Origin: Candidatus Bathyarchaeota archaeon
GTDB lineage: Archaea; Thermoproteota; Bathyarchaeia; 40CM-2-53-6
Direction of reading: 5' to 3'
Assembly: GCA_005888755.1 (NCBI GenBank)
Contig: VBBQ01000011.1
Coordinates: 1 to 56,680 of the forward strand
Length of the DNA: 56,680 bases
Shown one piece after another: positions 2,919 to 49,001 of this stretch. The notes under the pieces were generated by a model, which searched no databases, was not told where the DNA came from, and worked only from the letters and a program-made list of their open reading frames with translations. The translations under genes were made by a program, and so were the position numbers. Every line of letters starts with the position of its first letter. Positions within the stretch are counted from its first letter, which is position 1.

Positions 2919-3314
2919 CTACAGGAGCTTGTGCACGACTCTGAGGCAGGCGTTCATCACATAAGGAATCTTATTGTCCGAGAGCATTTTCTTCGCTTCC
3001 TCGTTTTCGAGTCCGAGCTGGGCCCAGAACGCGAAAGGTCTACCATACTTCTTCCGCATCTCGATCACCTGCTGTGCAACCTGTGGAAGTTCTTCGCTTG
3101 GACGGAAGACGTCTACGATATCGATCTTTTTCGCCAAGTCTGAAGGCAGGTCCATGAGAGTCTTGTACGCTTTCTCGCCCAGAATCTGATCTGCCGTTGG
3201 ATTTACCGGGATGATTGTGTAGCCGTGTTCCTTCATATAGGCGGGAACCGTGTAGGCTTCCTTCTCTGGGCTCTTGGAAGCGCCTACGAAAGCAATTACA
3301 TCGTATTTTTTCAG
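2919..3314 (-). CDS. CoA-binding domain protein (YccU-like), apparent CTG start
   Basis: The protein has a Rossmann-type CoA_binding_2 domain. It reads DVIAFVGASKSPEKEAY near the N-terminus, HGYTIIPVNP in the middle, then a DIVDVFRPSEE segment and FWAQLG. The first ATG (3236) would remove the nucleotide-binding GASK loop, so translation must begin upstream. The frame is open back to a stop at 3423-3425 and contains no ATG, GTG or TTG. I place the start at CTG 3314, giving 131 aa. An alternative is ATT at 3365, which has a GAGG sequence five bases before it. It is the last gene of a minus-strand run after two MFS genes. The family is confident; the start is inferred. Confidence 0.75.
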   Translation of the reverse strand: MKKYDVIAFVGASKSPEKEAYTVPAYMKEHGYTIIPVNPTADQILGEKAYKTLMDLPSDLAKKIDIVDVFRPSEELPQVAQQVIEMRKKYGRPFAFWAQLGLENEEAKKMLSDNKIPYVMNACLRVVHKLL

Positions 3315-3426
3315 AATTTCTCTCGGGGATATGGTCGTGCTGGGAGCGTGGGTTTGGGACGTAATGCTTGCCTCTGATCCTACCTGTTGTCCGGTGGCTA
3401 AAAAGATGCTTCGCCGCGAAAATCAG

Positions 3427-4635
3427 CTAGCTCCGAGGCCGTATGTTCTTGAACTGGGTATAGAACAATGTGATTGAGATCGCGTAGAATATCGTGGCTA
3501 GATAGAAGGGAATGTCGAACCTTCCCGTTGCCAAGATCAAGCCCCCAATCACGGTGGTTATGCTGTTTGGGATTCTCCAGACGACAGTGTTGATGGAGCT
3601 TGCCAGTCCTCTCTCTTCCTGGGACATGATGCCCATAAGATAGGAGTCCTGCAGGGGAACCGACACGTTCATCAAAGCTGCTCGAACAATGTAGAGGCCT
3701 CCAGCCAGTCTGACGTCCGGGACGAATGCGAGGCTTAGCATAAAGACAGTCGAGAACCCTTGCGTAGCGACTATCGCCTTGAGCAAGCCGAACCTGCTTG
3801 AGAGCCTCGGACTCGTGACTGCCGCCAGCGCTATTGTCAAGTTAGAGAGCGAGAGTAGGGGTCCGCTGAATGTGTCAGGAGTTCCGAATTTGAGGAAGAG
3901 CCAGGTCGGAATTAGGGGAATGATGAACCCTGCACCAAGTCCGATGAGGCTGTTTATCCCGGAGAACTTGAGGAGGATCGGGAAGTTCTTGCCTCTGATC
4001 AGTTTCGTTGGGTTGGGAGTTTCCTTGTAGTCCTTGAGGACGCGAAACAGCCAAACAGGCGTGATAGCCGAGACTAGTCCTACAAGCACTAGGAGGTCTT
4101 CGTGAACTGGGATCGAGCCCAGCCCAGTCAGGGATTGGATTGCTGGGATGAATGCTGGCAGTAGAGACCCGAACGCTACCGCTCCATTGCCGAGGATGAA
4201 CGAGAGAGAGAACGAGGCATCCCGGTTCTCCAGACTTGTCTGGTCAGCGATTATCGCATTCCATGTCGAAAGGGCTGCTGACTCGGCTACTCCAAGAATG
4301 ATTGCTGCGAGAACCAAGACGGCTACGTTTAGTGTAAGGGCGATCATTATGATGGGAAGGGGAACTAGAGATGTTCCGATCAGGAGCAGCTTCTTCCTCC
4401 CCCTTCGATCAGAGAGTATTCCAAGGGGTATTGAGAGCAGAACCATTGCGCCCTCTAGACCAAGGAGAAGACCTACGACGCCGGCGCTGATGTTCAGTTG
4501 AGGGAAAAACGCTGTAAGGTAGACAAGGAGATATCCTATTGCCATATTGTTGAAGATGAGGGCAATGATGAGCCACTTCACTTTCCGAGGAATCTTGGAG
4601 AAGAATCGCCGTTTCTCCTTGGCTTCAGGCTCCAT
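3427..4635 (-). CDS. MFS transporter
   Basis: The 402-residue protein has twelve likely transmembrane helices. The loop between helices 2 and 3 carries the MFS signature GILSDRRGRKKLLLIG. The N-terminal cytoplasmic segment is basic (EKRRFFSKIPRKVKW). The substrate cannot be told from the sequence. It follows a second MFS gene by 36 bases and precedes the CoA-binding gene by 112 bases, all on the minus strand, so an operon is likely. The start is ATG. Confidence 0.85.
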   Translation of the reverse strand: MEPEAKEKRRFFSKIPRKVKWLIIALIFNNMAIGYLLVYLTAFFPQLNISAGVVGLLLGLEGAMVLLSIPLGILSDRRGRKKLLLIGTSLVPLPIIMIALTLNVAVLVLAAIILGVAESAALSTWNAIIADQTSLENRDASFSLSFILGNGAVAFGSLLPAFIPAIQSLTGLGSIPVHEDLLVLVGLVSAITPVWLFRVLKDYKETPNPTKLIRGKNFPILLKFSGINSLIGLGAGFIIPLIPTWLFLKFGTPDTFSGPLLSLSNLTIALAAVTSPRLSSRFGLLKAIVATQGFSTVFMLSLAFVPDVRLAGGLYIVRAALMNVSVPLQDSYLMGIMSQEERGLASSINTVVWRIPNSITTVIGGLILATGRFDIPFYLATIFYAISITLFYTQFKNIRPRS

Positions 4636-4671
4636 CTCGGGCTCGCCGGCGGGGGTTGAGATAGATCGGGG

Positions 4672-5883
4672 TTATTTAATCGGAGCCGGGTTGGCTGGTC
4701 GTGAATCAGCGGATCGTCGACGTTGAGTCTGTTCTCTCAGGAAGAATTGTGAGAGTACTGCTGAACCGAGAGCTGCCGCAAACGCGAAGAGAATGACGGA
4801 CTGGAGTTGTGTCGCGTCCGCTATCACTCCCCCGATCAATGGGCCGAGACCGCCACCGAGACTTATCGCCGACTCTAGGATACCCAGTCCTTTTCCTCTA
4901 TCAGCGATCGACGTGTAATCTGACATCAATGCTGCAGCTGAGGCTTGGATCAATGGATAGATCGGAAGCGTCCATAGAATCGTCACTACAACTGTGTTGG
5001 TGACGAAGTAGATCGTTGCAAAATAGGCCATGTACCCCACGGCTCCCAAGAGGAACATAGGTTTCCTGCCAAATCTATCGTCCAGAGGACCGACGATCCG
5101 AAAAGCAATCGCCCCAAAAACCGTTGTAGCCGTAGCTGCAAGACCAGCCATCAACCGGGATCCGCTAAGAGAATCCACCAAGTATATCGTGAAGAAGTTG
5201 TTGAAGGAAGAGGATGAGACGAGTGCGAGAATTGACACCCCGCAGAGAATCAGAACATTCCGTTGTCTGAGAAGACTCCAATATCCCTCCGGGCGGATCA
5301 CGGATTTCACGATAGTTAGCCCCTGCTTGGTTAGGAAGGAAACGACGAGTAGTCCGGAGTAGCCATAGAGAGCTCCCAGGATGTAGAGATAGATTGGATC
5401 GAGGAATTGGAACAGTACTCCGCCGATGAGGGTTGCCGACGCGTAACCTAGTGAGGCTGCCGTCCAGAATTCTCCGATAGCTCGCCCATACTGGGTGGAT
5501 GTCTCAGTCGCCAGTGCGGCAAAGATGGGAATGAAGCTGGAAGAGAACAAGCCCATCAGTGCGACCATGAACACGAACTGTGCAGGGTCCTTCAGAAAGG
5601 GGAAGAGGGAGAATCCAACCGCCTGGACAACGAATGAGAGAGCTAGAATTCTCGTTCCCTTTCCAGTGGAGTCCAGAATTCCTCCCCAGACTGGAGAGAG
5701 GACGATCGTCTCAATGGCTGGGATGAATGCTACTAGCGAGATGAGTGAGAAGGATGCTCCTAGTGAGCGTAGCTGGATTGGCAGAAATGCCCAGATTATT
5801 CCGGTCGGGCCGAAAGCGAGGGCGGTTGATAGCTTAACAGCGATTCGCTGGTCCGTAAAGACCCGTCCACATGCCTGGCGCAG
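4672..5883 (-). CDS. MFS transporter, apparent CTG start
   Basis: From the first conventional start (GTG 5574) the protein is 300 residues and lacks its first helices. The same frame is open upstream and encodes a clear TM1-TM3 region (for example TALAFGPTGIIWAFLPIQL and VWGGILDSTGKGTRILAL), ending at a TAG at 5899-5901. No ATG, GTG or TTG occurs in that stretch. Starting at CTG 5883 gives 403 aa, almost the same length as the neighbouring MFS protein (402 aa). The TAG is the stop codon of a 54-residue ORF in the same frame, 15 bases before the CTG. Non-AUG initiation, readthrough of the TAG, or a sequence error are all possible. Confidence 0.8.
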   Translation of the reverse strand: MRQACGRVFTDQRIAVKLSTALAFGPTGIIWAFLPIQLRSLGASFSLISLVAFIPAIETIVLSPVWGGILDSTGKGTRILALSFVVQAVGFSLFPFLKDPAQFVFMVALMGLFSSSFIPIFAALATETSTQYGRAIGEFWTAASLGYASATLIGGVLFQFLDPIYLYILGALYGYSGLLVVSFLTKQGLTIVKSVIRPEGYWSLLRQRNVLILCGVSILALVSSSSFNNFFTIYLVDSLSGSRLMAGLAATATTVFGAIAFRIVGPLDDRFGRKPMFLLGAVGYMAYFATIYFVTNTVVVTILWTLPIYPLIQASAAALMSDYTSIADRGKGLGILESAISLGGGLGPLIGGVIADATQLQSVILFAFAAALGSAVLSQFFLREQTQRRRSADSRPANPAPIK

Positions 5884-5898
5884 AAGCGATCTAGAGGG

Positions 5899-6063
5899 CT
5901 ATTTTGAAGGTGTCGTCTGGATAAGACGTCTAATCTCTTCGCTTATCTTCTGACGCTCGTTGTCATCCTTCGCCATCATCCACTGAAGCTTGAGCTTGAA
6001 AACGCGATCCTCTAGGCTAACGTTTTCTTTCTGCACTGTGTCTACCATGCTTGTCTGCGCCAT
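5899..6063 (-). CDS. Small helical protein, 54 aa
   Basis: This short ORF runs from ATG 6063 to a TAG at 5899. It encodes a hydrophilic, mostly helical peptide containing LEDRVFKLKLQWMMAKDD and ending in TTPSK. A TATA-like TTATATT lies about 40 bases upstream of the ATG, which supports expression. It is the first gene of the minus-strand run leading into the two MFS transporters and is in the same frame as the first of them. No family was recognised. Confidence 0.45.
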   Translation of the reverse strand: MAQTSMVDTVQKENVSLEDRVFKLKLQWMMAKDDNERQKISEEIRRLIQTTPSK

Positions 6064-6128
6064 CGTCCGGTATCGAGCTCATTCTCGATCGTTGGAATAT
6101 AACAAGATCTGAACCCGGGAATCACTCA

Positions 6129-7106
6129 CTATAGCCCAGCAAGTCCCCCTATCACGAACCCGACAATCGCCAAGAGACCAAAAGCGAGATGTAGAAATAT
6201 CGTGTTGGCGTTTGCAGGTATAATCGCATGCGGATCTTTGTAATTAGCCCGTAGTATCCTGACTGCCTTCAAAGCAAACGGTAGACTGAACAAAGCAATG
6301 AGCGTCGCAAAGCTTGTGATCGGGAAGGAGACAAAGACCTTCAGAACCGCATAGAGGAGCAGTAGAAAGTAAGAGGTCGCCAATAGTCCCACATAGACCG
6401 CGACAGACCTGAGGTAGCCCAGCCTCAAGACCAGAGTTTTCTTTCCGACCGCTTTGTCCGCGTCCATATCGGGAAACTCGTTGATCCACAAGACCGCTGC
6501 AATGAGCAGTCCCACTGGAATCGACGCGAGCAAGGGTACCGTCGCTGATGCAAGGGATCCGGTTTGAACGTAGTAAGCGCCGAGGGTCATTACGGGCCCG
6601 AAATTGAGTCCGACAAGAAATTCTCCGACCCCTCGGTAAGCCAGCTTGAAGGGAGGGCCGACGTAGAAGTAAGTAGAAATTACGCCGATCAATCCGAACC
6701 AGAACAATTGGTACAATCCCAATTGGAAGATGAGGTAGAATCCTATGAGGGATCCGAGGATCAGACAGGAGGTGGACACGATCAAATGGGTTGAGGGCTT
6801 AATCAGGCCAGCTGTCAGTATTCGCCCGCCGCCGGCGAACGGGTTCTGGTGTCGAACCTGAAGATCATTTCCGCTCTTGAAATCAAAATAATCATTGAAC
6901 ATGTTACTCGCAATCTGGATCAAACTCGCGCCGAGCAGCGTGAGCAGGAAAGTGCCCCAGTTGAAGGCGCGCAGTGTTTCCCAAGCGATCACCCCTCCAA
7001 GTATGATCGGCACGAAGGTCGCCTGCAGGAATGGGATCCGCATCGCCTTAAGCCACAATCCGATGAACGGCGGCTTTTTCGCGTCAATGCTTGGGTTGGA
7101 TGACAT
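6129..7106 (-). CDS. UbiA-family prenyltransferase, MenA-like
   Basis: The 325-residue protein has eight to nine transmembrane helices and both Asp-rich motifs of UbiA prenyltransferases, NMFNDYFDFKSGND near residue 67 and NEFPDMDADKAVGKKTL near residue 210. The first resembles the NDYFD motif of 1,4-dihydroxy-2-naphthoate prenyltransferase (MenA), which attaches a polyprenyl chain in menaquinone synthesis. The residues following, including GGGRILTAG, also fit MenA. It is divergent from a geranylgeranyl reductase 98 bases away, which suggests a shared role in isoprenoid quinone or lipid synthesis. Other UbiA substrates are possible. Confidence 0.85.
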   Translation of the reverse strand: MSSNPSIDAKKPPFIGLWLKAMRIPFLQATFVPIILGGVIAWETLRAFNWGTFLLTLLGASLIQIASNMFNDYFDFKSGNDLQVRHQNPFAGGGRILTAGLIKPSTHLIVSTSCLILGSLIGFYLIFQLGLYQLFWFGLIGVISTYFYVGPPFKLAYRGVGEFLVGLNFGPVMTLGAYYVQTGSLASATVPLLASIPVGLLIAAVLWINEFPDMDADKAVGKKTLVLRLGYLRSVAVYVGLLATSYFLLLLYAVLKVFVSFPITSFATLIALFSLPFALKAVRILRANYKDPHAIIPANANTIFLHLAFGLLAIVGFVIGGLAGL

Positions 7107-7204
7107 TACGTGGCTGTCTCCCGGTTCGAAAAAAGCGCCCTCGCCGGAGGTGATATAAGGCTAATTCCCGGAGTAGCTTGACTTACGAGGCAAAAGGCTA
7201 AAGC

Positions 7205-34095: not shown

Positions 34096-37000
34096 GTGAC
34101 CATCAATCTGTTTTCCATGGCGCGTGGTCGGGTCCGGATGAGAAATCACCGCAAGCGGCTAGTATTCAGTTTCCTGATCTCGCTTTTTCTTCTTGTCGGT
34201 TTCGTTAGGCCTGCTTTTGCTGCTGGAATAACTTTTGTAACATCTTCCACAAACGCGGGAACCAATTTCGTAGCGACAACAACGGCGGTAAGTGTCAATG
34301 CCGGGGATACTGTTGTTGCCATTGGCGGTGCCCAAAGTGGAACCGTTGTGTTCGCCGATAGTGAATCTGATACCCCGACTCTAGTAAACACCGAGGTTGA
34401 CAGTGGTGCAACTATCTTTGAACAAATGTCGTACTTCACCGTCGCCACGACAAGTGCGACCTATGTTGTAACCGCGACATTCTCAGGCGGAACGTCTGGT
34501 AGAAATTCATTGATCGTTCTAGTATACGGCGGGGTAACTAGTGTAGGAAGTAATGCTATCAGTACTGGCTCGAGTACGAGTCCGAGCGTTGTTTTAACAA
34601 CCGCAACGACCAGCGATTATGCGGTTGTGGGATTCAGCTGGCGCGGGAATAGTGGTGACTGCACTACAGGTCTCGTGGGCAACGATAGGGCTCTCGTAGC
34701 CTCGGGAGGTGCAGCCCCACGAGTCACCGGCTCCGGATTTGATAATACTGGTAGTACCTCCGTTACAAACACTGAGTGCCTAGGAACAAGTTCAGCGTGG
34801 GTAGCGATAGCAGTTGACCTCAAAGGCAGTGTCGCGTACACCCAGTCCCTCTCCGCTTCAGTTGGTTCGTCAGCGAGCCTTTCTGAGAAGAACTCTCTCT
34901 TCCGCCCCCTGAGCGGGTCTTTGAATTTAGCATCAAGTCTCACCCAGAAGAACTCGCTCTTTAGATCCTTGAGCAGTTCTCTGAATCTGGCTTCGAGCCT
35001 CGCTGAGAAGAACTCTCTCTTCCGAACCATAAGCGGTTCTTTCAATCTGGCCTCAAGTCTCGTTGAGAAGAATTCTATCTTCAGAACGCTCAGCGGATCC
35101 CTAGCACTTACGACGAAAATGATGTTTACCTCAATTCAAGCATCCAAGACCACAGCTGTCTCCTGCACTCTGCAACCCGGGGCCGTAACTACGTGTACAC
35201 TGAACCCAACTTCCTTCATTTCCGCCGCCTCAAGTCAGGCAGCGAAAAACTCTCTGTTGAGAGCGGTCATCGGATCATTAGGCCTTAGCGGAAGCTCTGC
35301 AGTGAAGAACTCCCTCTTCAAAACACTCACCAGCTCGCTGACCTTGGCCTCAAGTTTTGCGGAGCATACTGCGTTGTCTAGAAGCCTCACCGGGTCTCTG
35401 ACTCTAGCCTCAAGCTTCTCCAAACAATCCTCAGTGTCAAGATCGCTCTCCAGTTCACTCGGTCTTGCAAGTTCCGGGACGAAGGGCCTTGCCAGGACTT
35501 TGACAGGGTCCCTCGGCTTCGCTACTAGTTTCGCTGAGCATGCTGCATCGTTCAGGTCATTGTCAAATTCATTGTCTACAGCCTCAACTTTTGCTAAGCA
35601 AAGTTCACTATTCAGAACCCTTACAGGTTCGTTTTCCCTGGCATCCGGTCTTGCCGAAAGATCCTCACTATTCAGATCTATGACTTCTACCTTGGGCCTA
35701 GCATCGAGTCTTGCCAAGCAAACTTCACTGTTCAGATCTCTTTCCAGTTCACTGACCCTGGCTGGTTCTCAGATCAAAGGCTTGGCTAAGGCCTTGACTG
35801 GTTCGCTAGGCCTTCTCTCGAGCTTCTCTGAACACACGTCATTGTCTAAGTCCCTGACTGGCTCCCTCGGGTCCACCTCAAGCTTTTTCGAGCACACTTC
35901 ATTGCTCAGGTCACTGACCGGAGCAATTGGTGCAGCTTCGAGTTTTGCGGAACATACTTCGTTGTTCAGGTCGTTGTCGGGCTCGCTCACATTAGCCAGC
36001 TCTGAGACTAAAGGTCTGGCTAAGACATTGACCGGCTCACTAGGATCGGCCTCTAGTCTCATCGAACACACTTCTCTGTTTAGATCCCTGTCAAGTTCGT
36101 TGTCTCTGGCCTCTACCTTTACAGAGAAAACATCTCTCTTCAGAACTCTCACCAGTTCGTTGTCCTTAACTTCAGGTTTATCCGAACATTCCTCGCTGTT
36201 CAGAGCTCTTTCTAGCTCACTGACCTCGGCTAGTTCTGAGACAAAGGGTCTAGCCAAGACGTTTACAGCCTCGCTAAGCTTAGCTTCGAGTCTTGGCGAG
36301 CATACCTCGCTGTTCAGATCACTGACCAGTACGCTTGGCTCGTCTGCGAGCTTTGTCGAGCACGCTTCACTGTTCAGATCATTCTCTAGTTCGCTGGGAT
36401 TCACAGCTTCAGTGCTCAAAAGCCGTATCGTAGCCCTCAGCGCCTCCTTTGGAACAGCGTCAGCCCTTACCCTTCACAATTCGCTGTTCAGGACACTTTC
36501 CAGTTCGTTGTCCCTAACATCCAACTCTGCCGCGAGGTCATCGGTGTTCAGGTTATTCACTGCTTCGCTTGGTTTAGCCTCAAGCATCGCCGAAAAATCT
36601 TCGTTCTTCCGGGCACTGGCCAGCTCGCTAGGTCCTGCCTCAAACTTTGTTGAGCACGCTTCATTGTTCAGGTCCTTGAGTGGGGCATTTGGCTCCGCTT
36701 CGAGCTTTGCTGAACATACTTCATTCTTCAGACTCTTTTCCGGATCCCTAGGTTCAGCCTCTAGTTTTGCCGAGAAGTCCTCGCTCTTCCGATCCCTTGC
36801 CAGTTTCCTAGGACTTCCTAGCTCTGAGACCAAAGGTCTAGCTAAGACCCTGAGCGCCTCTCTGGGTTCAGCTGCGGGTTTAGTGGATCATGTTTCGCTG
36901 TTCAGATCTCTCTCCGGTTCCATAGGTCTCGCAACTTCCTTTTTCAGAGGCCGGACTGTAAACCTGAGTGCTTCTCTCGGTGCGGCCTCAAGCCTTGTTG

Positions 37001-39222
37001 ATCATCTTTCACTGTTCAGATCCCTCTCCAGTTCGATAGGTCTCTCGAGCTCCTTCTTTAGAGGCCGGACTGTAAACCTGAGTGCTTCACTCGGTTCAGC
37101 ATCCAGCTTCCTAGAACACCTCTCACTGTTCAGGTCCCTGTCCGCCTCACTGGGTGAGACAGCTTCCTTCTTCAGAGGTCGAACCGTGAATCTTGGCGCA
37201 TCAATAGGCCCGGCTTCAAGTCTTACTGAACATCTCTCCCTGTTGAGGTCCCTAACCGGCACTCTTGGCTCTTCTTCAGGTCTTCTAGACCACATATCAC
37301 TGTTCAGGTCGCTGAGCGGCGCGCTCAACACGGCCTCTGGCCTTGCTAGTCATAATTCGCTGTTCAGATCACTGACCAGCTTGTTCTCCTTGCCTTCCGG
37401 TTTTGCCGAAAAAGCTTCGTTGTTTAGGTCGCTTTCTGGAACACTTGGAGCCAGCTCAAGTCTTGTTGATCATAATTCGTTCGCTCGGTCTATTAGTGGA
37501 TCGCTTGGTTCAGCCTCGAGCTTAGCAGAGCGTATTTCGGTATTCAGGAATCTGACCGGTTCACTGACTCTTGCTAGTGCTCAGACCAAAGGAGTTGCAA
37601 AGAGTTTGAGTGCTTCACTCGGCTTTAGCGGAGGGTTCCTAGAGCATGTTTCGTTGTTTAGGTCTTTGAGCGGTTCGTTGGGTCTAGGGAGTTCGCTGTT
37701 CAGAGGCCGCACCGTGAACCTGAGCGCGTCGTTGGGTTCGGCCTCTAGTCTTGCAAAGAGGTACTCCTTCTTCAGATCTCTGACTGGGGCGCTGGGTCTT
37801 GCCAGCGCTTTCTTCAACGGTCAAACTGTCAACCTAAGCGCTTCGTTTGGTTCAGCCTCAAGCGTCTCTGAGAAGAGTTCGTTCTTCAGGTCTGCGAGCG
37901 CGACTCTGGGTCTAGTTGCTTCCGAGACCAAAGGACTTGCGAGGATCTTGACTGGCTCTCTGGGTTCGGCCTCGAGTCTTTCTGAGAAGAACTCGATCTT
38001 CCGGTCCGTGTCCATGGCCCTGGGTCTTTCGTCTTCTCAAATCAGGGGTCTCGCCAAGACCCTGAGTAGTTCGCTAGGGGCCTCTTCGATTTTCGCGGAG
38101 AAGACTTCCGCGTTCAGATCTTTGACTGGTTCTATGGGTTTTGTGAGCTCTCAGTTCAAGGGTCTTGCGAAATCCTTGGGAGCTTCGCTCGGTCTAACAT
38201 CAAGCGTTGCGGAGAAAACCTCGTTGTTCAGATCACTCAGCAGTTCAATAGGCCTCTCAGCGTCTTTCTTCAGAGGCCGCACCGTCAACTTGGGCGCTTC
38301 GATTGGTTCGGCTTCGGGCATTACAGAGCGGACCTCCTTCTTCAGGTCTCTCTCAGGGTCCCTGACGCTAGCCGGTTCACAGGCAAAGGGTCTCGCGAAG
38401 GCCCTAAGCGCCTCACTAGGTTCAGCATCGGGCTTCCTGGAGCATCTCTCGCTTTTCAGATCTCTCGCAGATTCACTTGGTCTTTCAAGCTCTCAGCAAA
38501 GGGGTCCAAGCATAACACTGAGTGCTTCATTGGGAATGGCCTCGAGTTTCGCTGAAAAGTCATCTCTCTTCAGGTCTTTCAGCAACTCCATTGGTGTCGC
38601 TACTTCTCAGAGCAAGGGTTTCAGTGAGCCTCTCAGCGCCTCGCTGGGTGGCGCTTCCATGTTGTCTGAGCACACTTCGTTGTTCAGATCATTTTCTGGC
38701 TCGATCGGTCTAGGCGCTTCCTACTTCAGAGGTCGCACCATTGACCTGGGCGCTTCAATCGGTTCAGCATCGAGCTTCTTCGAACACGTGTCGCTTGTGA
38801 GATCTCTCTCCGGATCCCTATCTTCGGGTTCGAATGGTGGAGAGAGTTCTTCGTTCTTCAGATCTCTGAGTGGTTCATGGAGCATGAAAGCAGTTTATGC
38901 GCGGGGAACAAAGTTTGTGCCTGTGGCTCTGGGGACAAACTTTGGTAGTGGAGAAGTTCTAATCGGTCGCTATGGTTGTTTCAATTGCAGCAGTAATACA
39001 GGGGACTTCGCCTTCCTGGTGATCGCTCTCGGGGTAGCAGCTTTCGGCGTTTACGCTGCTAAACAACGACATCAATCTTCAGGCCCTCCAACAAAGCCTG
39101 GGGAGGAGAAGGTTTCCGTTGATGAAGAAGGCTGGGAGACAAAAGGATCTAGCAACGCCGAAGGGAGAGCTGTCAATCCACCCAAAGATAAAGAAGGTTG
39201 GGAGACGAGGCCTGAAGGCTAA
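34096..39222 (+). CDS. Giant repeat surface protein, 1708 aa
   Basis: A signal peptide (VFSFLISLFLLVGF then AFAA) leads into a beta-rich domain of about 210 residues. Residues 253-1594 are about 67 tandem units of 20 residues (type SLGSASSFAEHTSLFRSLSG) mixed with 18-residue variants ending FFRGRTVNLSA or ETKGLAKTLTA. One early unit is interrupted by about 40 residues with two Cys. After the repeats come a CFNC pair, a transmembrane helix near 1634-1655 and a cytosolic tail with EEGWETK and KEGWETR. The start is GTG. It is probably a long stalk or adhesin on the cell surface. The DNA copies differ at many synonymous positions, so the array is old and kept by selection on protein. Confidence 0.85.
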   Translation: MTINLFSMARGRVRMRNHRKRLVFSFLISLFLLVGFVRPAFAAGITFVTSSTNAGTNFVATTTAVSVNAGDTVVAIGGAQSGTVVFADSESDTPTLVNTEVDSGATIFEQMSYFTVATTSATYVVTATFSGGTSGRNSLIVLVYGGVTSVGSNAISTGSSTSPSVVLTTATTSDYAVVGFSWRGNSGDCTTGLVGNDRALVASGGAAPRVTGSGFDNTGSTSVTNTECLGTSSAWVAIAVDLKGSVAYTQSLSASVGSSASLSEKNSLFRPLSGSLNLASSLTQKNSLFRSLSSSLNLASSLAEKNSLFRTISGSFNLASSLVEKNSIFRTLSGSLALTTKMMFTSIQASKTTAVSCTLQPGAVTTCTLNPTSFISAASSQAAKNSLLRAVIGSLGLSGSSAVKNSLFKTLTSSLTLASSFAEHTALSRSLTGSLTLASSFSKQSSVSRSLSSSLGLASSGTKGLARTLTGSLGFATSFAEHAASFRSLSNSLSTASTFAKQSSLFRTLTGSFSLASGLAERSSLFRSMTSTLGLASSLAKQTSLFRSLSSSLTLAGSQIKGLAKALTGSLGLLSSFSEHTSLSKSLTGSLGSTSSFFEHTSLLRSLTGAIGAASSFAEHTSLFRSLSGSLTLASSETKGLAKTLTGSLGSASSLIEHTSLFRSLSSSLSLASTFTEKTSLFRTLTSSLSLTSGLSEHSSLFRALSSSLTSASSETKGLAKTFTASLSLASSLGEHTSLFRSLTSTLGSSASFVEHASLFRSFSSSLGFTASVLKSRIVALSASFGTASALTLHNSLFRTLSSSLSLTSNSAARSSVFRLFTASLGLASSIAEKSSFFRALASSLGPASNFVEHASLFRSLSGAFGSASSFAEHTSFFRLFSGSLGSASSFAEKSSLFRSLASFLGLPSSETKGLAKTLSASLGSAAGLVDHVSLFRSLSGSIGLATSFFRGRTVNLSASLGAASSLVDHLSLFRSLSSSIGLSSSFFRGRTVNLSASLGSASSFLEHLSLFRSLSASLGETASFFRGRTVNLGASIGPASSLTEHLSLLRSLTGTLGSSSGLLDHISLFRSLSGALNTASGLASHNSLFRSLTSLFSLPSGFAEKASLFRSLSGTLGASSSLVDHNSFARSISGSLGSASSLAERISVFRNLTGSLTLASAQTKGVAKSLSASLGFSGGFLEHVSLFRSLSGSLGLGSSLFRGRTVNLSASLGSASSLAKRYSFFRSLTGALGLASAFFNGQTVNLSASFGSASSVSEKSSFFRSASATLGLVASETKGLARILTGSLGSASSLSEKNSIFRSVSMALGLSSSQIRGLAKTLSSSLGASSIFAEKTSAFRSLTGSMGFVSSQFKGLAKSLGASLGLTSSVAEKTSLFRSLSSSIGLSASFFRGRTVNLGASIGSASGITERTSFFRSLSGSLTLAGSQAKGLAKALSASLGSASGFLEHLSLFRSLADSLGLSSSQQRGPSITLSASLGMASSFAEKSSLFRSFSNSIGVATSQSKGFSEPLSASLGGASMLSEHTSLFRSFSGSIGLGASYFRGRTIDLGASIGSASSFFEHVSLVRSLSGSLSSGSNGGESSSFFRSLSGSWSMKAVYARGTKFVPVALGTNFGSGEVLIGRYGCFNCSSNTGDFAFLVIALGVAAFGVYAAKQRHQSSGPPTKPGEEKVSVDEEGWETKGSSNAEGRAVNPPKDKEGWETRPEG

Positions 39223-40302: not shown

Positions 40303-40400
40303 TGGTGGGCCGGGAGGGATTTGAACCCACGACCTTCGCCGTGTGAGGGCGACGTCCGTTCTGCGCAATCATCTTGCTTACCAGGCTGGACTACCGGCCC
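40303..40400 (-). tRNA. tRNA-Val(CAC) with a D-arm intron
   Basis: On the minus strand the gene starts GGGCCGG and ends CCGGCCC, A and an encoded CCA. The anticodon arm TCGCC/GGCGA holds loop CTCACAC, anticodon CAC. Removing 21 bases at 40358-40378 restores the GTCC/GGAC D-stem and a 77-base tRNA. The intron falls after the D-loop GGTA, the same place as in tRNA-Ala. It contains a GCAA/TTGC hairpin. The T-stem has one T-T mismatch. There is no intron in the anticodon loop. Confidence 0.9.
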
Positions 40401-40932: not shown

Positions 40933-42360
40933 CTAGCTTATCGTCTGGACCTTGAGAATCTCCGTCTTGCCAGACGGGCCCTTAGGATCTCCAGCAATTA
41001 TGACGATTCTATCCCCTTTTTTCGCCAGTTTCAATCGAACCACCGATCTTTCAGCCTCATGGAAAATCTCCTCGCTAGTACTGAACTCTCTAGTGAGTAG
41101 AGTTTGAACTCTCCAGGAGAGGAGCAGTTGCCGCTGCACTTCTGGATGAGACGTTAGGGCAACAATCGGGAGCGGAGGCCGATACTTGGACACAAGACGC
41201 GCGGTCCTACCTGTTCGGGTAGGTGCGACGATCGCCGAAGCTGAGACTTGCAAGGCGGTCTCGCAAGCTCCCAGTGCTAACGCGTCGGCTTGACCGTGTT
41301 CGTACCATGCTCGACGTTGAGGCGAGATCTCCTTTGGAAGGAATCGCTCCGTCTCCTCAGCTACGCGTCCTAGAATCCGAACCGCTTCCACGGGATATTT
41401 GCCGATCGCCGTTTCCTCAGAGAGCATTACCGCGTCCGTGCCGTCGATGATAGCGTTCGCGACATCTGTAACTTCGGCCCTGGTCGGCGTCGGTGAAGAG
41501 ACCATAGATTCCAACATCTGGGTTGCGGTGATCACCGGTTTTCCGAACCTGTTGCTCTCGTGAATGATTCTCTTCTGTATTATCGGGACAAGTTCGAGTT
41601 TGAGCTCTACCCCGAGGTCGCCTCGTGCAACCATGACCCCATCCGCTTCCTGAACGATCTCTTCGAGGTTATCAACAGCCTCTCGCTTCTCTATCTTCGC
41701 AACGACAAATATCTCATGGCCGTTGGCCTCGGCAACCTTTCGCGCCGTCTTTATGTCGTCGATTTTCTGGACAAAGGACACCGCGATGATGTCAACCTTG
41801 TTTTCCACGCCGAACTTGATGTGCTCCTTATCATCACTCGTTATGGCCGGGACACGGATTCTGAGTCTCGGGAGATTGACTCCCTTTCCCGACGTCAGAT
41901 CGCCACCGTTGATCACGCGTCCTTCGACCTCGTCTCTCTTGGCTCGTAGGACCTCGATCCTGATGGTCCCATCTGCGAGGAATATTGTATCGCCTTTCTT
42001 GACTGCTTTGGGAAGGTCAGGATAGGCGATTGGTATCTTCGATTTGGCGTTGGTTGGCTTGGTTGTCAGGCTGATCCTGTCGAGTCTTTGAAGGCGAAGA
42101 GGTTCGCTTGCGAGTTTGCCTACTCTCAGTTTTGGTCCAGGTAGGTCTTGGAGTATCGCTACAGGGCGGTGTAGACGTTCGCTGACCTGTCGAATCGTTC
42201 TGATGACGCGAACGTGTTGGTCGTAGGTTCCATGCGAGAAGTTGATGCGTGCAACATCCATCCCCGATTCGGTCAGTTTAGTTAGCACTCTGGAGGAATC
42301 TGATGCAGGGCCGATGGTGCAGACTATCTTGGTAGCTATGGTGCTCGCTCTAGTTGTCAG
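40933..42360 (-). CDS. pyk: Pyruvate kinase, apparent CTG start
   Basis: The enzyme converts phosphoenolpyruvate and ADP to pyruvate and ATP. Visible motifs include ARINFSHGTYDQH, ILQDLPGPKLRVG, the active-site FVVAKIEKREAVDN and MVARGDLGVEL. The first conventional start (GTG 42288) would remove the universal TKIVCTIGPAS strand, which is encoded just upstream in frame. That stretch is open to a TAG and contains no ATG, GTG or TTG. CTG 42360 gives a natural N-terminus and a 475-residue protein of normal size. With apgM at 50.4 kb it represents lower glycolysis, though the genes are unlinked. Confidence 0.93.
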   Translation of the reverse strand: MTTRASTIATKIVCTIGPASDSSRVLTKLTESGMDVARINFSHGTYDQHVRVIRTIRQVSERLHRPVAILQDLPGPKLRVGKLASEPLRLQRLDRISLTTKPTNAKSKIPIAYPDLPKAVKKGDTIFLADGTIRIEVLRAKRDEVEGRVINGGDLTSGKGVNLPRLRIRVPAITSDDKEHIKFGVENKVDIIAVSFVQKIDDIKTARKVAEANGHEIFVVAKIEKREAVDNLEEIVQEADGVMVARGDLGVELKLELVPIIQKRIIHESNRFGKPVITATQMLESMVSSPTPTRAEVTDVANAIIDGTDAVMLSEETAIGKYPVEAVRILGRVAEETERFLPKEISPQRRAWYEHGQADALALGACETALQVSASAIVAPTRTGRTARLVSKYRPPLPIVALTSHPEVQRQLLLSWRVQTLLTREFSTSEEIFHEAERSVVRLKLAKKGDRIVIIAGDPKGPSGKTEILKVQTIS

Positions 42361-42577
42361 CGTGCTCGCGACCCGTTGCTAATCCGATCCCATTATTCAT
42401 AACACATTCCTTGCGGGCTAGGGTCGTCTTCTTCAAGTCTCCCACGCCCCCTAGTTCGCTGGAATCAAGAAAGGGGGGATCGAGGTGTCTCTGAAACCGA
42501 TATCCTTGGCTGCTTAGAGAATGCGAGGAAAAAATCGTTACGTTTTCGGGAGGTAGCAGTGTCTTCCTGAGGATTGC

Positions 42578-42796
42578 TTATTGGGCCGCGACTAGAACTT
42601 CGACTGGTTCGGGCTCTTCAGTGATGGCTCGTGTTGGTTTAGCGAAGGTGTAGACTAGGGCGCAGCCTTTTTCGTCAATTCGGAGCTCGACAGCACCTGT
42701 CGGCGCGCCCATTATGTCTAGAAGTTCTGCGACGTCTTTGGGAACTCGGAGGTACGCTGATTGTTTGATGATTAATGGTTTTACGCTCTGGGTCAA
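42578..42796 (-). CDS. AbrB-like small DNA-binding protein
   Basis: The 72-residue protein resembles the 61-residue one at 31651: KQSAYLRVPKDVAELLDI then strands VELRIDEKGCALVYTF. The C-terminal tail is longer and acidic (EEPEPVEVLVAAQ). AbrB-type swapped-hairpin proteins bind DNA as dimers and often act as transition regulators or antitoxins, but no toxin gene is adjacent. The start is ATG. The region upstream is a 640-base gap. Confidence 0.6.
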   Translation of the reverse strand: MTQSVKPLIIKQSAYLRVPKDVAELLDIMGAPTGAVELRIDEKGCALVYTFAKPTRAITEEPEPVEVLVAAQ

Positions 42797-43438: not shown

Positions 43439-44269
43439 CTGGGCTTAGCGAAGATACTTGCGGTTCAATCTTTCAAAGGTGGAACCGGGAAGAGCACGGT
43501 TAGTGCCAATCTAGCGGTCACACTCGCTCGACTAGGCAAGAGGGTTGCCGTTGTCGATCTTGACCTGGAAGGACCAGGACTGCATGTTATATTCGGAATA
43601 TCAGATGGAGAGATTAGGGCGACAATAAACGATGTTCTGCAGAGTTCCATCCTTATCAGCGATGCTGTCCTCGATCTAACCCCTCGACTGGGCATAGAAT
43701 CTGGCTGTCTTCTCTTCTGTCCGGCAGGGCACAGGCTCGAAGAGATTCTCAAAATGGTCGACACTGGCTTCAACCTCAGTCGCTTCAAAGCCGTTCTCGC
43801 TGCTCTAGCTACTGAATACCAGCTTGACTATATCCTAATCGACAGCCACCCCGGAATTGAAAAGGACACAATCGTATCGATGGCGGTCTGCGACGTGGTC
43901 GTCCTCCTGTCCAGGGTCGATCACCAGGACATGTTCGGCAGCGGCGTCATGAACGAAGTCGCGAGCCAGCTTAGGAAACCCGTGGTTTTGATACTCAACA
44001 TGATACCCAGTAGCGTGGGAGACAAGGAGTCCAAGAAGATCGGAGAGAAAATAGCAAGCCTCTTCAACCTCGAAGTCCTAACGGCTCTACCCTTCAATTC
44101 GGACGTGTTCGAAGATCTCAGCAGAGGAGTATTCGTTCTAGAACACCAGAAAGATCCACTCACCAAGAGATTCACAGAACTCGCTGAGAACATGATAAGC
44201 GTCATCGACCGAGCTTTGCAAGGTATCGAAAACTACGATAGAGGAACCACCCCTCAGCCTGTCAGCTAG
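43439..44269 (+). CDS. MinD/ParA-family ATPase, apparent CTG start
   Basis: The protein has the deviant Walker A motif FKGGTGKSTVSANLA, DLDLEGPGLHV as switch region and DYILIDSHPGIEKDT as the Walker B/switch II segment, followed by NMIPSSVGDKESKKIG. These ATPases dimerise on membranes or DNA to position other proteins. The first conventional start (ATG 43754) would lose the whole P-loop. The frame is open back to a TGA at 43436-43438, and CTG directly follows it, giving MGLAKILAVQSFKGGTG and 276 aa. There is no ATG, GTG or TTG before the P-loop. No partner gene is adjacent. Confidence 0.88.
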   Translation: MGLAKILAVQSFKGGTGKSTVSANLAVTLARLGKRVAVVDLDLEGPGLHVIFGISDGEIRATINDVLQSSILISDAVLDLTPRLGIESGCLLFCPAGHRLEEILKMVDTGFNLSRFKAVLAALATEYQLDYILIDSHPGIEKDTIVSMAVCDVVVLLSRVDHQDMFGSGVMNEVASQLRKPVVLILNMIPSSVGDKESKKIGEKIASLFNLEVLTALPFNSDVFEDLSRGVFVLEHQKDPLTKRFTELAENMISVIDRALQGIENYDRGTTPQPVS

Positions 44270-44473
44270 ATCAATTTAGCAACCGCCCAAATCCTTTCAG
44301 GCATATCATAGAATCCCAGGCGCTCTTCAAATCAGGAAAGAGGCTCGCGGACCACAGCACCGAGTGGAATTATTTTTGGCGTCGATAGGCTTTTGCATTC
44401 TTTACAATCGTTGTCCCAACTTCACTAGACCAAGCTAAACTTCAATCTGGCCCTAGCAAAATCGCGACACTCT

Positions 44474-44509
44474 CCAAAGTTTCTATAACCCCCAAAGTTC
44501 CCGTAACCC
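44474..44509 (+). promoter_or_regulatory. Tandem 18-base direct repeat over the regulator's promoter
   Basis: CCAAAGTTTCTATAACCC (44474-44491) is followed directly by CCAAAGTTCCCGTAACCC (44492-44509), 15 of 18 bases identical. The first copy contains the likely TATA box (TCTATAA), and the second ends ten bases before the TTG start. The arrangement suggests binding by the regulator itself. Confidence 0.55.
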
Positions 44510-44518
44510 GGCCTCACC

Positions 44519-45721
44519 TTGAGCTACCATTTGGCAGACGAGTATTTCCAGCGGATACATCAGATAATGTCTCTACTAGACGATGAGAATGTCGAGATCA
44601 TTGGCGCGATGAAAAAGTTCGGACCTCGAAACCTTCAGTCAATTGCCCGAAAATCCGGCGTTCCATACCCAACTGTCTATACTCGCGTCAACAAGCTCGG
44701 AACCCAGGGACTGCTCGACACTTGGACGTATCCCAACCTTGCCAAGATCGGACTAGCCCGATCAATGGTTCTACTAACCCCGACCCCGGGCCGAGAGTTG
44801 ATCGCCAGCGAAGCTCTGAAGATTCCTGGATACTGGCTCTGGATCGCAAGATGCACAGGCGAATGCAACGGATACTACTCACAGCACGCCGTCCCTGTCG
44901 AAAACAGGCAGGACTTTGTCCAGTATCTCGATCAGATAGTATCATCGGGCCTCGCCACGAGCTATAGGATCTTCTGGCTCGGCGATTACCACTCTCACAT
45001 ACCCAATTTCGAATACTACGATTTCAAGAAGAGAGCCTGGAGATTCGACTGGCCAGCATGGCTCAACATGTTTACGAAGGGCAAGACGCAGAATGTCCCT
45101 GAGGAGAAGGAGTCGTCGAAAGACGACTTTGACAAGAACGACCTATTGATTCTCAAAGAGCTGATGAAGGATGCTCGAAAGAAGCTCTCCGAGCTCTCGC
45201 AGATGATCGGAATGACCCTTCCAGCAGCCAAGTATAGATTCGACAACCTCGCCCGCCGAGGATTCCTACAAGACTACGTCATTCAAGTCCTTCCCTACCC
45301 ACCGGAGATATCAGACCTCTATGAAGTTCGATTGGACTTCGGCGAACACAAGGCTATGATGGCAAAAGAGAACTTGTTCAAACGGCTACCATTCGTCTTG
45401 AACTACTCACGAATCAATGGGACCAACTCGATAACAATCAGAGTCTACCTCCCTCGAACAGAAGTTAACAATCTCTTGACCTTGCTCTCAGCTCTCGTCA
45501 GAGGAGGCGCAATAGATCGTTTCTCCTACATGCTTCTAGATCCCATGACCATACAAGCACAGACCTTCCACTACAAGGCCTTCGAGGACAAGTCGGGATG
45601 GCGCTATGACAACCATGAATACCTTAGCGCTCTTCGCAAGCTTGCATCGTCACTCGACAAGGCGGAACCCCCTCCTGTAACCTTCCAACCTTCGAAGAGC
45701 CTTAGTGTTACGATGATGTAG
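44519..45721 (+). CDS. Tandem-HTH (Lrp/AsnC-like) transcription regulator, paralog 1
   Basis: The 400-residue protein has two winged-helix domains. The first, near residues 18-70, includes NLQSIARKSGVPYPTVYTRVNKL. The second, near 205-260, includes KLSELSQMIGMTLPAAKYRFDNL. Each is followed by a region that may bind ligand. It lacks the DNA-distal RAM domain of true Lrp proteins as far as I can tell. It is about 60 percent identical by eye to the convergent neighbour at 45778. The start is TTG. A tandem repeat overlaps its promoter. Confidence 0.7.
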   Translation: MSYHLADEYFQRIHQIMSLLDDENVEIIGAMKKFGPRNLQSIARKSGVPYPTVYTRVNKLGTQGLLDTWTYPNLAKIGLARSMVLLTPTPGRELIASEALKIPGYWLWIARCTGECNGYYSQHAVPVENRQDFVQYLDQIVSSGLATSYRIFWLGDYHSHIPNFEYYDFKKRAWRFDWPAWLNMFTKGKTQNVPEEKESSKDDFDKNDLLILKELMKDARKKLSELSQMIGMTLPAAKYRFDNLARRGFLQDYVIQVLPYPPEISDLYEVRLDFGEHKAMMAKENLFKRLPFVLNYSRINGTNSITIRVYLPRTEVNNLLTLLSALVRGGAIDRFSYMLLDPMTIQAQTFHYKAFEDKSGWRYDNHEYLSALRKLASSLDKAEPPPVTFQPSKSLSVTMM

Positions 45722-45777
45722 CAGCGTTTTTTCGTCAGAAGCCATCTGGTCTTGGGACCGGTTCGGCTAGAATCGAG

Positions 45778-46971
45778 CTATTGGAAGCCCAGGACGGGAG
45801 CACTTTGGAAGTTTGCCTGAATGCCTTCTTCTTTGTCGAAAGCGGATGACACTTTCCTCAGCTTTTCAAAGTATTCCAGATTGTCGTACTGCCAACCCGT
45901 GTTGTTCTCGTAGTACTCGTAGGAGAAGGTTTGTGTCCTGATGGTCATAGGGTCGAGCAAGACGTAGGTGAATCCTGTAAGCACTCCGATTCGGGAAAGT
46001 GCTGAGAGCATGGTGAGTAGGTTGTTCATCTGGGTCCTAGGTAGATACACTCTCACCGCAATGGAATTGGTTCCTTCGACCCGGGAAAGGGTCATAACCA
46101 TTGGAAGGCTACTCAATGTCTTCTCCCCGTGACATAAGCCCTCGTTCGACTTGAAATCCAACACCATTTCGTAGAGGTCTGAGATTTCAGGAGGGAATGG
46201 CAGCATGTCGATTACGTATTCTTGTATGAACCCAGATCGAGCGAGATTGTCGAAACGATACTTGACAGCTGGGACCGTCATGTCCAGCAGCCCCGCTAGG
46301 TGAGTCAGTTTAGTTCGCCCGTCCTTGACCAGCTCTTTCAGTATGATCAAGTCTTTCTTGTCAAACATACCCGGAATTGAGGGGTTCTTGCGTTGGGTCT
46401 GACCGGGTTTTGCGGCGAGGGCTTCGAGCCATCCCGGCCAATCGAATGTCCACGATTTCTTCTTGGAGTCATAGTAACGAAAATCCGGGAGTGGTGACCT
46501 AGCCTCTCCTAACCATAGGAGACGGTATTCGGAAGCAATTCCCGACGCGACAACCTTCTCAAGGTACTGCTCAAAATCCCAGCGTTTCTCAAGAGGGATC
46601 GCATGAGTCGAGTAGTAGCCGTTGCACTCACCCATGCAACGAATGAGTCTCAACCAGTAGCCGGGAACTCGCAGGGCCTCAGGAGCAAGTAGTTCTCTGC
46701 CCGGTTTCGTGGTGAGCAATGCCATCCCTCTCACCAGCCCCAGTTTTGCGTAGTTAGGGTGGATCCAAGTTCGGAGGAGCCCTTCCTTTTCTAGTTTAGA
46801 GACTCTCGCGTGGACTGTTGGTCGAGGAATGTTGGTCTTGTCGGATATGATCTGGAGGTTTCGGAGACCATATCTCCTCATCGCTGTGACAATCTTGACG
46901 TTCGCCGGGTCTAAGAAGGAGACAAAGCGATTGATTTTCTCCAGGTATTCTTCTGGTGCGATATGGCTCAA
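45778..46971 (-). CDS. Tandem-HTH (Lrp/AsnC-like) transcription regulator, paralog 2
   Basis: The 397-residue protein matches paralog 1 throughout: NLQIISDKTNIPRPTVHARV in the first helix-turn-helix, KLTHLAGLLDMTVPAVKYRF in the second, and a shared SYVLLDPMTI-type region near the C-terminus. The two genes converge with 56 bases between their stops. The start is TTG 46971 (TTGAGCCAT), similar to TTGAGCTAC in paralog 1. Convergent orientation suggests an inverted duplication. Targets are unknown. Confidence 0.7.
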   Translation of the reverse strand: MSHIAPEEYLEKINRFVSFLDPANVKIVTAMRRYGLRNLQIISDKTNIPRPTVHARVSKLEKEGLLRTWIHPNYAKLGLVRGMALLTTKPGRELLAPEALRVPGYWLRLIRCMGECNGYYSTHAIPLEKRWDFEQYLEKVVASGIASEYRLLWLGEARSPLPDFRYYDSKKKSWTFDWPGWLEALAAKPGQTQRKNPSIPGMFDKKDLIILKELVKDGRTKLTHLAGLLDMTVPAVKYRFDNLARSGFIQEYVIDMLPFPPEISDLYEMVLDFKSNEGLCHGEKTLSSLPMVMTLSRVEGTNSIAVRVYLPRTQMNNLLTMLSALSRIGVLTGFTYVLLDPMTIRTQTFSYEYYENNTGWQYDNLEYFEKLRKVSSAFDKEEGIQANFQSAPVLGFQ

Positions 46972-47226
46972 ATATGGTCTGAAGAAAATAGGGGGCGGTC
47001 GGAACTTTTCAATGTTTTCCTTACATAGGGATGGTTTTGGGAGTTGGAGGAGTGTCGTCGCCTCGACAGGGCAGGAGATTCACCTCGCATAGTAAAAGGA
47101 TAAGTCTTTAACTTATGTTATTCTGAGGAGGATTTGTCGAGCGGAATCTTAACAAGGTAGCGAGGTAGGTTTATCTCCGCTCATATGTTGTCCAGATGTG
47201 GGGTAAGGGCGTGATTGGAGAGTAAG

Positions 47227-47508
47227 ATGGATGAGGAAAGAGCGGCCTCCCCGGACAAAGTCAAGCTGTTTCTCGGGCGGTATCCTGAGTACGAAAAGAC
47301 CCTGCGGTTGGCGGTTGCTCATGAGGAATCAACAGGTTCCTCGGACGGTCAAGGGTGGCAGTGGCACGACGTCGATACGCACCCAACCAAGCTAATTCGG
47401 CTTGTAACTGAGGGAATTGCTAGGATAAGTCTCAGATCAAGGCAGGCGACTTACTATCTTCTAAGGGAAAGAGCGACGGTGAAGAAGAGCCTCAAAGAGG
47501 TTTCTTGA
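47227..47508 (+). CDS. Hypothetical protein, 93 aa
   Basis: A small acidic-to-basic helical protein. The start is taken as ATG 47227; TTG 47215 in frame would add four residues. It contains VKLFLGRYPEYEKTLRLAVA and a basic C-terminal helix (RQATYYLLRERATVKKSL), a pattern that could be a winged helix or a small adaptor. The sequence TAACTTATGTTAT about 110 bases upstream resembles part of the ZIP promoter palindrome. No family was recognised. Confidence 0.5.
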   Translation: MDEERAASPDKVKLFLGRYPEYEKTLRLAVAHEESTGSSDGQGWQWHDVDTHPTKLIRLVTEGIARISLRSRQATYYLLRERATVKKSLKEVS

Positions 47509-47675
47509 TCGCACAACCCCTTGAGAATGCAATCCTCAATGGGAGGCACTTGACTGGTTCAGGCGCTTTGAGCAGGTCTGTTCTGACACTCAAGACTCCT
47601 AAGAACCCGATAGTGGCTCGTTTTCGGGTGTTGGCCGAGAGAGCAGAGACCTTTGCCTAGACTTGCAAGCACGCG

Positions 47676-49001
47676 TTAAGGGCTTAGCCGATTTCTGTCT
47701 CTGGGAAACATCGTGGTTTCCCTGATATTTTCCCGACCAGTCATTTTCATGGTCAACCTCTCCAGTCCAATGGACCAGCCCGCGTGTGGCGGGGCACCAT
47801 ATCTGAATGAGTCGATGTAGAACTTGAAGTTCTCAGGATTGAGTCCCTTGGACTTGAGTTGCTGAATGAGCAGAGCTGGGATGTGGATACGTTGGGTTCC
47901 AGACGCGATCTCCAATCCTCTATAGATGAGGTCGAATGCTCTGGAGGTCCTACCATCTTGGTTAGGCATAGCGTAGAATGCTTTCTGTTCTGACGGCCAG
48001 CCGACGATGAAGAATGCTTCCTCCTTCACAAGTTGGGAGAGTCTCTTCTCCTGCGTCTTAGAAAAGTCGTTTCCAATCTGAATGTCCTCACCGTTTTCCC
48101 GGAGTAGCTCGATTGCGTCTCGGTATTGCACGCGCTTTAGAGGCAGGTGCAATGGTTCGAGTTTCTGACCGATTTTTTCCAGCTCGTCGTTGCTGGATTC
48201 GGTGATCTTCTTGATGCATTCGGCGAGAAACTCCTCGAGAACTTTCATGACATCCTCGTCTGTCGAGAATGCTTGTTCGATGTCCATCTGCCGGACCTCG
48301 TTGAGATGCGTGGGTTGTTCAAACTTTTCCGCCCTGAAAACTGGTAGAATGGTGAACACTTTCTCGAAGGATATGGCGCACATTTGCTTGTAGAGCTGGG
48401 GTGACTGGGCGAGATAGGCGTCTTTCTCGAAATATTTGAGAGAGAACAGCTCGGCCCCGCCTTCGCTTGCCGAGGCAATGATTACAGGCGGTTGTATCTC
48501 CACATAGCTTCGTGCGGTGAAGAATTCTCGGAAGGTTTGAAGGATCCTTGATTGGATTTTGAAGATGGCGTTGGATTCCTCGCTGCGGAAATCTAGGAAT
48601 CTCCAGTTCAGCCTGGTTTCCAGCAGTGTGTTCTGGACACCCCTTGGGTCAAGGGGTAACGGCGTCTCGGCTCGGTTCACCACTTCGAGCTGTTCGGGGA
48701 TGACTTCGATACCTTTCTTAGCAATCTTGCTCGAAACAACTTTGCCTTTGACTAAGATGACGTCTTCTTGGTGGAGAGTGCTGATTTCCTTGACGATGTC
48801 CAGGCTCACTTTTGCCTTAGGAGCCGTTACCTGGACCATTCCGGCCATGTCTCGGAGAAGGATGAACGAGATTCCTCCTAAGACTCTAACGTCGTGAACC
48901 CAGCCGGCCAGGACTACATCCTTGTCCATGTACTCTTTGAGTTGGGAAGTGAGGGCTGTCCGCCGAAGATGGGACGTGTGGCTGGATGGGCTGCTAGACA
49001 G
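47676..49001 (-). CDS. aspS: Aspartyl-tRNA synthetase, apparent CTG start
   Basis: This class II synthetase charges tRNA-Asp, and possibly tRNA-Asn in archaea. The OB-fold anticodon domain (VVLAGWVHDVRVLGG) is followed by motif 2-like PVFRAEKFEQPTHLNE and motif 3 GWSIGLERLTM. The first ATG (48929) removes the conserved N-terminal RRTALTSQL segment, which corresponds to RTHYxxQI of other archaeal AspRS. The frame upstream has no ATG, GTG or TTG before a TGA at 49008-49010; CTG 49001 gives 441 aa, the normal length. The same TGA ends the tnpB-derived frame upstream. Confidence 0.93.
   Translation of the reverse strand: MSSSPSSHTSHLRRTALTSQLKEYMDKDVVLAGWVHDVRVLGGISFILLRDMAGMVQVTAPKAKVSLDIVKEISTLHQEDVILVKGKVVSSKIAKKGIEVIPEQLEVVNRAETPLPLDPRGVQNTLLETRLNWRFLDFRSEESNAIFKIQSRILQTFREFFTARSYVEIQPPVIIASASEGGAELFSLKYFEKDAYLAQSPQLYKQMCAISFEKVFTILPVFRAEKFEQPTHLNEVRQMDIEQAFSTDEDVMKVLEEFLAECIKKITESSNDELEKIGQKLEPLHLPLKRVQYRDAIELLRENGEDIQIGNDFSKTQEKRLSQLVKEEAFFIVGWPSEQKAFYAMPNQDGRTSRAFDLIYRGLEIASGTQRIHIPALLIQQLKSKGLNPENFKFYIDSFRYGAPPHAGWSIGLERLTMKMTGRENIRETTMFPRDRNRLSP

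Follow-up and report, generated by a model that had tools for sequence, protein, structure and literature searches.

The stretch of DNA analysed here (the window) comprises 56,680 nucleotides of a Candidatus Bathyarchaeota archaeon (VBBQ01000011.1) and is contig C3 of the draft genome G000 (2.01 Mb, 48 contigs, no 16S rRNA match). It carries five conserved genes whose start codons are the subject of this study, namely those for pyruvate kinase (PK, 40933–42360, minus strand), the non-discriminating aspartate--tRNA ligase (AspRS, 47676–49001, minus strand), a transporter of the major facilitator superfamily (MFS, 4672–5856, minus strand), a coenzyme A (CoA)-binding protein (PF13380, 2919–3362, minus strand), and a MinD-like ATPase (43439–44269, plus strand). 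An earlier note on the window had observed that these five frames contain no ATG, GTG, or TTG between the upstream in-frame stop codon and the conserved N-terminus, and had proposed a CTG start for each of them; the lack of canonical codons, back to the stop codon or to a frame break, was confirmed in all five. If the first canonical codon were taken as the start, about 24 residues would be lost from PK and AspRS, 42 from the CoA-binding protein, and 94 from the MFS transporter, and in the MinD-like ATPase this codon falls past the P-loop. The window was compared with 17 other species of the genus, which formed two alignment groups, clade A (G000, G001, G004–G007, G010, G013–G015, and G017) and its sister clade B (G002, G003, G008, G009, G011, G012, and G016). 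Named relatives, as determined with PheT, are the soil 'Candidatus Bathyarchaeota' genomes BA_23, BA_24, and BA_3.

Recurrent non-canonical starts in core genes were borne out by these alignments, and four could be placed firmly in the window, two at CTG and two at ACG. The AspRS start codon CTG (49001–48999) is invariant in 9/9 clade A species and lies opposite ATG in 5/5 clade B species after a gap of one codon; residue 13 of the protein corresponds to position 3 of the NCBIfam model PRK05159 (535 bits). In PK, the CTG at 42360–42358 is the only start-like codon common to 8/8 clade A species. Frame and sequence diverge directly upstream of it, the codons next to it vary, and residue 8 matches position 8 of the model PRK06354; the clade B start (ATG, GTG, or TTG) lies about three codons downstream. 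ATA 42339 is also a plausible PK start by N-terminal length and was rejected, as this codon varies (ATA, ATT, ATC, GTT). The CTG codons proposed earlier for the other genes did not withstand comparison with relatives. The MFS gene most probably starts at ACG 5856–5854, which is invariant in 10/10 clade A species and exactly opposite ATG in 6/6 clade B species, and not at CTG 5883, where indels and frame changes interrupt the upstream frame in relatives. Likewise, the start of the CoA-binding protein is placed at ACG 3362–3360, 16 codons upstream of the proposed CTG 3314. This ACG is invariant in 9/9 clade A species, corresponds to ATG or TTG in their clade B counterparts, and has a Shine-Dalgarno-like motif (GAGG) 8 bases upstream. 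The proposed CTG 3314 encodes an internal leucine (CTG, CTA, CTT, TTA, or TTG in clade B), and ATA 3332, although plausible by N-terminal length, was rejected as it is ATA or ACA in clade A. We therefore regard the CTG starts of PK and AspRS and the ACG starts of the MFS and CoA-binding proteins as genuine, as judged from sequence conservation.

The start of the MinD-like ATPase was less clear. CTG 43439 is not conserved (ATG in G015, CTA in G017, CCG in G006), and a second candidate two codons downstream, TTA 43445, has GGTGA six bases upstream and is TTA or TTG in all clade A species; clade B species have ATA (three) or TTG (one) at this position.

Single-base errors in the assembly, named in the earlier note as the main alternative, could in principle conceal ordinary starts, given that G000 is a draft metagenome-assembled genome of 48 contigs in which, according to that note, sufC and tnpB carry frameshifts. 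Errors of this kind are ruled out by the finding of the same non-canonical codon in 8–10 separately assembled species, opposite ATG in the sister clade. For PK, AspRS, MFS, CoA, and PheT (see below), cross-species conservation refutes this explanation, and substitutions downstream of the starts are mainly in third positions, as is typical of true coding sequence. We consider its probability as a general explanation to be practically negligible.

Conservation of the start codons exceeded that of the same codons elsewhere. The predicted starts of PK, AspRS, MFS, and CoA are invariant in 4/4 cases over 8–9 species. Over the same species, only 1/28 internal ACG and 2/32 internal CTG codons of these G000 genes are invariant, although the amino acid is nevertheless retained at 25/28 and 28/32 of them, respectively. 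In a three-way gene set, internal ACG stayed ACG in both G005 and G017 at 73 of 569 positions (12.8%), compared with 6/6 of the predicted ACG starts of the window and contig C13, at which the third base is thus fixed.

To cover more of the genome, about 410 kb of G000 and the syntenic DNA of G005, G017, and G014 were scanned for orthologous frames, taken from stop to stop, in which substitutions follow a coding pattern, and ortholog groups without a canonical codon near the onset of coding conservation were flagged. Thirty-two of 234 groups were flagged and inspected codon by codon, and candidates were curated by eye since an automatic change-point scan was noisy due to overlapping genes and spurious open reading frames (ORFs). 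About 12 groups remained with an ACG or CTG start in G000, equivalent to ~5% of the 234 groups or ~8% when set against the 138 resolved canonical starts (61 TTG, 57 ATG, 20 GTG). Predicted ACG starts were those of MFS, CoA, PheT, GlyA, a M48/M56-type peptidase (C13:154237), and an unknown protein (C13:140634), which might instead start at a conserved CTG eight codons downstream. CTG starts were assigned to AspRS, PK, ScpA (C13:104205), acylphosphatase (C13:162707), a winged-helix protein (C13:46400), and TatC (C13:45181).

Start codons were also exchanged between close species. Among clade A species, the start reads ATG/TTG/ACG in C13:47701, ATG/ATG/ACG in ScpB (C13:103634) and in C3:62339, TTG/ACG/TTA/TTG in C13:147108, and ATG/ATG/ATA in C13:85320; further same-site exchanges were CTG/TTG/TTG, CTG/TTG/TTG/TTG, and CTG/ATG/TTG. 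An ATG near the start in one clade A species faced ACG in another in 15 ordered comparisons and GTG in 17; in both counts, one gene can contribute more than one comparison, and some of the sites are shifted. In clade B, G003 has ACG at the start of a ParA protein and CTG at that of C20:7356, and the corresponding G005 codons are ATG and TTG, respectively. In the control genera of the same order, two of 65 groups were flagged in g7, neither of them convincing, and the single case among 26 groups in g8 was PheT. The alignments thus show ACG and CTG as putative starts of several per cent of genes, throughout the lineage and at sites interchangeable with ATG, GTG, and TTG between species.

This breadth bears on the possibility that weak ACG and CTG starts hold selected enzymes at low or self-regulated levels, in the way that the AUU start of Escherichia coli infC serves self-regulation. 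Several enzymes of tRNA and amino acid metabolism are indeed affected (AspRS, PheT, GlyA, and possibly GatE and TrpE), but so are the genes for TatC, ScpA, ScpB, acylphosphatase, MFS, and EthD-domain proteins. Moreover, starts switch to TTG or ATG between close species, as is predicted by drift, and regulation is an unlikely explanation of the pattern.

A few genes appear to lack even ACG and CTG. GatE (G000:C13:72886–74790, minus strand) has no ATG, GTG, TTG, ACG, or CTG near its start, and a TCG located directly after an in-frame TAG and eight bases after GGAGG is conserved in three species. In three species, TrpE (G000:C13:66564–67982, plus strand) lacks a canonical start, the first canonical codon being at residue 50 or later, and a conserved ATA precedes its coding-like N-terminus. 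GatE, TrpE, and the MinD-like ATPase may represent more near-cognate starts or coupled reinitiation and, for GatE, also readthrough. The same cases are informative on C-to-U RNA editing, which occurs at start codons in plant plastids and would present ACG as AUG and CUG as UUG, hence as ordinary starts, to the ribosome. A single such change would convert either of the most frequent codons, ACG and CTG, into a canonical start, and the GatE TCG, kept in three species, is one change away from UUG. Editing does not account for the aligned ATA and TTA starts, however, no convincing GCG start was found, and we know of no start-codon editing in archaea; we consider it extremely unlikely.

PheT provided the cleanest site, as archaeal PheT begins with 'MP(T/S)(V/I)' and residue 2 matches position 2 of the model TIGR00471. 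Its start is ACG in clade A, in 5/6 clade B species (ATG in G003), in G018 from another genus, and in G026 from another family, CTG in G024 and G029, and ATG or TTG in the remaining alignable genomes of the order and class. Among 23 named Bathyarchaeota records, ACG is confined to the three that belong to the genus of G000, and 45 records from other groups have ATG (n = 42), TTG (n = 1), or GTG (n = 1), with one record misaligned. PheT is also among the genes (with GatE, C13:47701, and C13:103634) whose start lies at, or immediately past, an upstream stop codon that is in frame or overlaps, as would be expected if translational coupling, that is reinitiation beside an upstream stop, made weak starts tolerable and codon identity less important. 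Yet other Bathyarchaeia with PheT directly after a stop codon use ATG, the MFS start lies 42 bases past the upstream stop, and AspRS sits after an apparent transposase remnant. Coupling is thus very unlikely to be the general cause.

Abundant TTG starts had been taken in the earlier note as a mark of relaxed initiation. They are abundant, accounting for 44% of resolved starts here, but this is a trait of the whole order, apart from the ACG and CTG starts. Two other genera of the order have TTG shares of 34% and 36% and almost no ACG or CTG starts, and TTG abundance was therefore rejected as an explanation. Across this Bathyarchaeia order (G000, G005, G028, G029), TTG is about as common as ATG and makes up 34–44% of resolved starts. 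Leaderless initiation was rejected as a cause as well, as canonical starts showed no TATA-like A/T peak at a distance of ~26 bases upstream; what they do have is a weak G-rich Shine-Dalgarno signal at −13 to −8.

We conclude that one Bathyarchaeia family very probably initiates regularly at ACG and CTG through relaxed near-cognate start-codon choice. The initiating 30S subunit would accept single-mismatch codons, regularly ACG and CUG and occasionally AUA, beside AUG, GUG, and UUG, and the start codons of core genes would drift among the accepted forms. The earlier note, which had assumed relaxation at the first base and recurrent CTG starts, was right in kind but is too narrow and misplaced the start in two genes: initiation does look relaxed, but ACG, a second-base mismatch, is at least as frequent as CTG, and ATA and TTA also occur.

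Presumed ACG and CTG starts could be decoded as methionine by the ordinary initiator tRNA-Met (CAU). The anticodon arm of the initiator tRNA, GGGCTCATAACCC, was found intact and once each in 18/21 genomes of the family; only this arm was placed, and the remainder of the tRNA seems to be split by introns. Introns at unusual places seem to be frequent in the tRNA genes. The 95% complete G000 had only 17 tRNA matches, most of them longer than 83 bases (intron-bearing), including one in the window (40306–40400, minus strand), and ARAGORN reported two tRNAs on ~1 Mb of clade A DNA.

A candidate part of the mechanism is encoded in the window itself. The gene at 1094–1399 (plus strand, TTG start at 1094) encodes a third paralogue of the start-codon proofreader aIF1/SUI1 (PF01253, 35.1 bits, above the curated cut-off of 25.5), in addition to the G000 genes at C37:71057 and C32:20997. 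Three SUI1 genes are present in G018 and in most genomes of the genus, one or two in a few incomplete ones, two in G020, and none in G019; no more than one copy was found in any of the 40 genomes from elsewhere in the order and class. Copy 1 is a standard aIF1 with Methanocaldococcus jannaschii aIF1 (PDB 4MO0) as best match, and copy 2 retains the basic loop RRWGK. In copy 3, HHTGR takes the place of this loop in the window gene, and HHTGR, HHSGR, or similar does so across nine clade A species, in which its TTG start is invariant and substitutions are mainly in third positions; copy 3 is apparently under purifying selection. It lacks the loop 1 residues that match R31, Y32, and K34 of Pyrococcus abyssi aIF1, which have a role in 30S or 30S:mRNA binding, and aIF1 promotes the rejection of wrong initiation complexes (PMC6237735). 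A diverged paralogue without the basic 30S-binding residues could act as a competitor or modulator of the standard copy, and relaxation may, more speculatively, be tied to this lineage-specific duplication. In its full form, this proposal states that the working start set was extended to ACG and CTG for ~5–8% of genes in connection with the aIF1 duplication, and that the diverged paralogue in the window lowers or regulates stringency, in a natural and heritable parallel to the sui1 mutants of yeast. We put it forward as a tentative and rather doubtful possibility; the link between duplication and relaxation is a correlation.

Several observations weigh against relaxed initiation and its connection to aIF1. 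PheT starts with ACG or CTG in G026 and G029, each of which has a single SUI1 gene, and the duplication is therefore not required. Duplication and relaxation each probably had a single origin, which makes their coincidence weak evidence. The gene-fraction control is small (12/234 versus 0/65, with P ~0.05 by hand estimate). Some of the six ACG starts, and likewise some candidates among the 234 groups, were spotted partly through their invariance; MFS, CoA, and AspRS are unbiased in this respect because their site is fixed by the clade B start. Finally, ATA, TTA, and TCG occur in few cases (TrpE, MinD, GatE, and one or two genes of G017), and not all of these agree with a rule of single mismatches.

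Near-cognate initiation in eukaryotes likewise makes use of single-mismatch codons, with CUG and ACG being prominent. There, however, such codons are inefficient alternatives, whereas here they would be the sole start of conserved housekeeping genes, and to our knowledge archaea differ from eukaryotes in lacking long-range scanning. The initiation core of e/aIF1, e/aIF1A, and e/aIF2 is common to both domains (PMC6412873). As in systems with aIF1/SUI1 proofreading, a standard aIF1 is present, but three paralogues replace the usual single aIF1, the window copy being devoid of equivalents to P. abyssi R31/Y32/K34. The rare CTG and ATT starts of bacteria and archaea (genetic code table 11, which lists CTG) resemble those described here in being non-AUG codons at a normal gene start, but differ from the present several per cent of genes, with ACG as common as CTG. 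In 36 prokaryote groups, two of 61,358 AUG starts had switched to CUG and one to AUU, numbers that depend on annotation, in which such codons are largely left out, and ACG starts are not mentioned in that survey (PMC5622118). Ribo-seq (ribosome profiling) of Methanosarcina mazei is a further instance of CTG initiation in an archaeon, with CTG starts in 5% of unannotated small ORFs; these are not conserved core enzymes, and the passages of that report consulted here give no ACG starts (PMC11456600). A review of archaeal initiation lists AUG, GUG, and UUG as starts and does not mention CUG or ACG (PMC7531240), and a 2021 review considers non-canonical translation in archaea as demonstrated in elongation and termination only (PMC8211752). 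The literature searched, which left most subscription journals outside its coverage, yielded no precedent in archaea, Bathyarchaeia included, for starts at ACG or at near-cognate or other non-AUG codons. As far as this literature goes, regular ACG and CTG starts of conserved archaeal genes, which the comparative data indicate to be real and lineage-wide, are undescribed.

If true, prokaryotic start-codon choice can evolve far from AUG, and the role of aIF1 in stringency becomes testable through natural variants. Gene finders limited to ATG, GTG, and TTG would truncate or mis-start such proteins; called from a canonical codon, the MFS transporter would be shortened by its first transmembrane segments and PheT by ~18–36 residues.

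Two further features were noted. The 5S rRNA match at L113:18311–18488 (G000:C13, ~138,311–138,488) spans 178 bases compared with 120 model positions, which suggests an insertion of ~58 bases. In the window, a 1708-amino-acid ORF at 34096–39222 (plus strand) with long open antisense frames probably encodes a repetitive surface protein.

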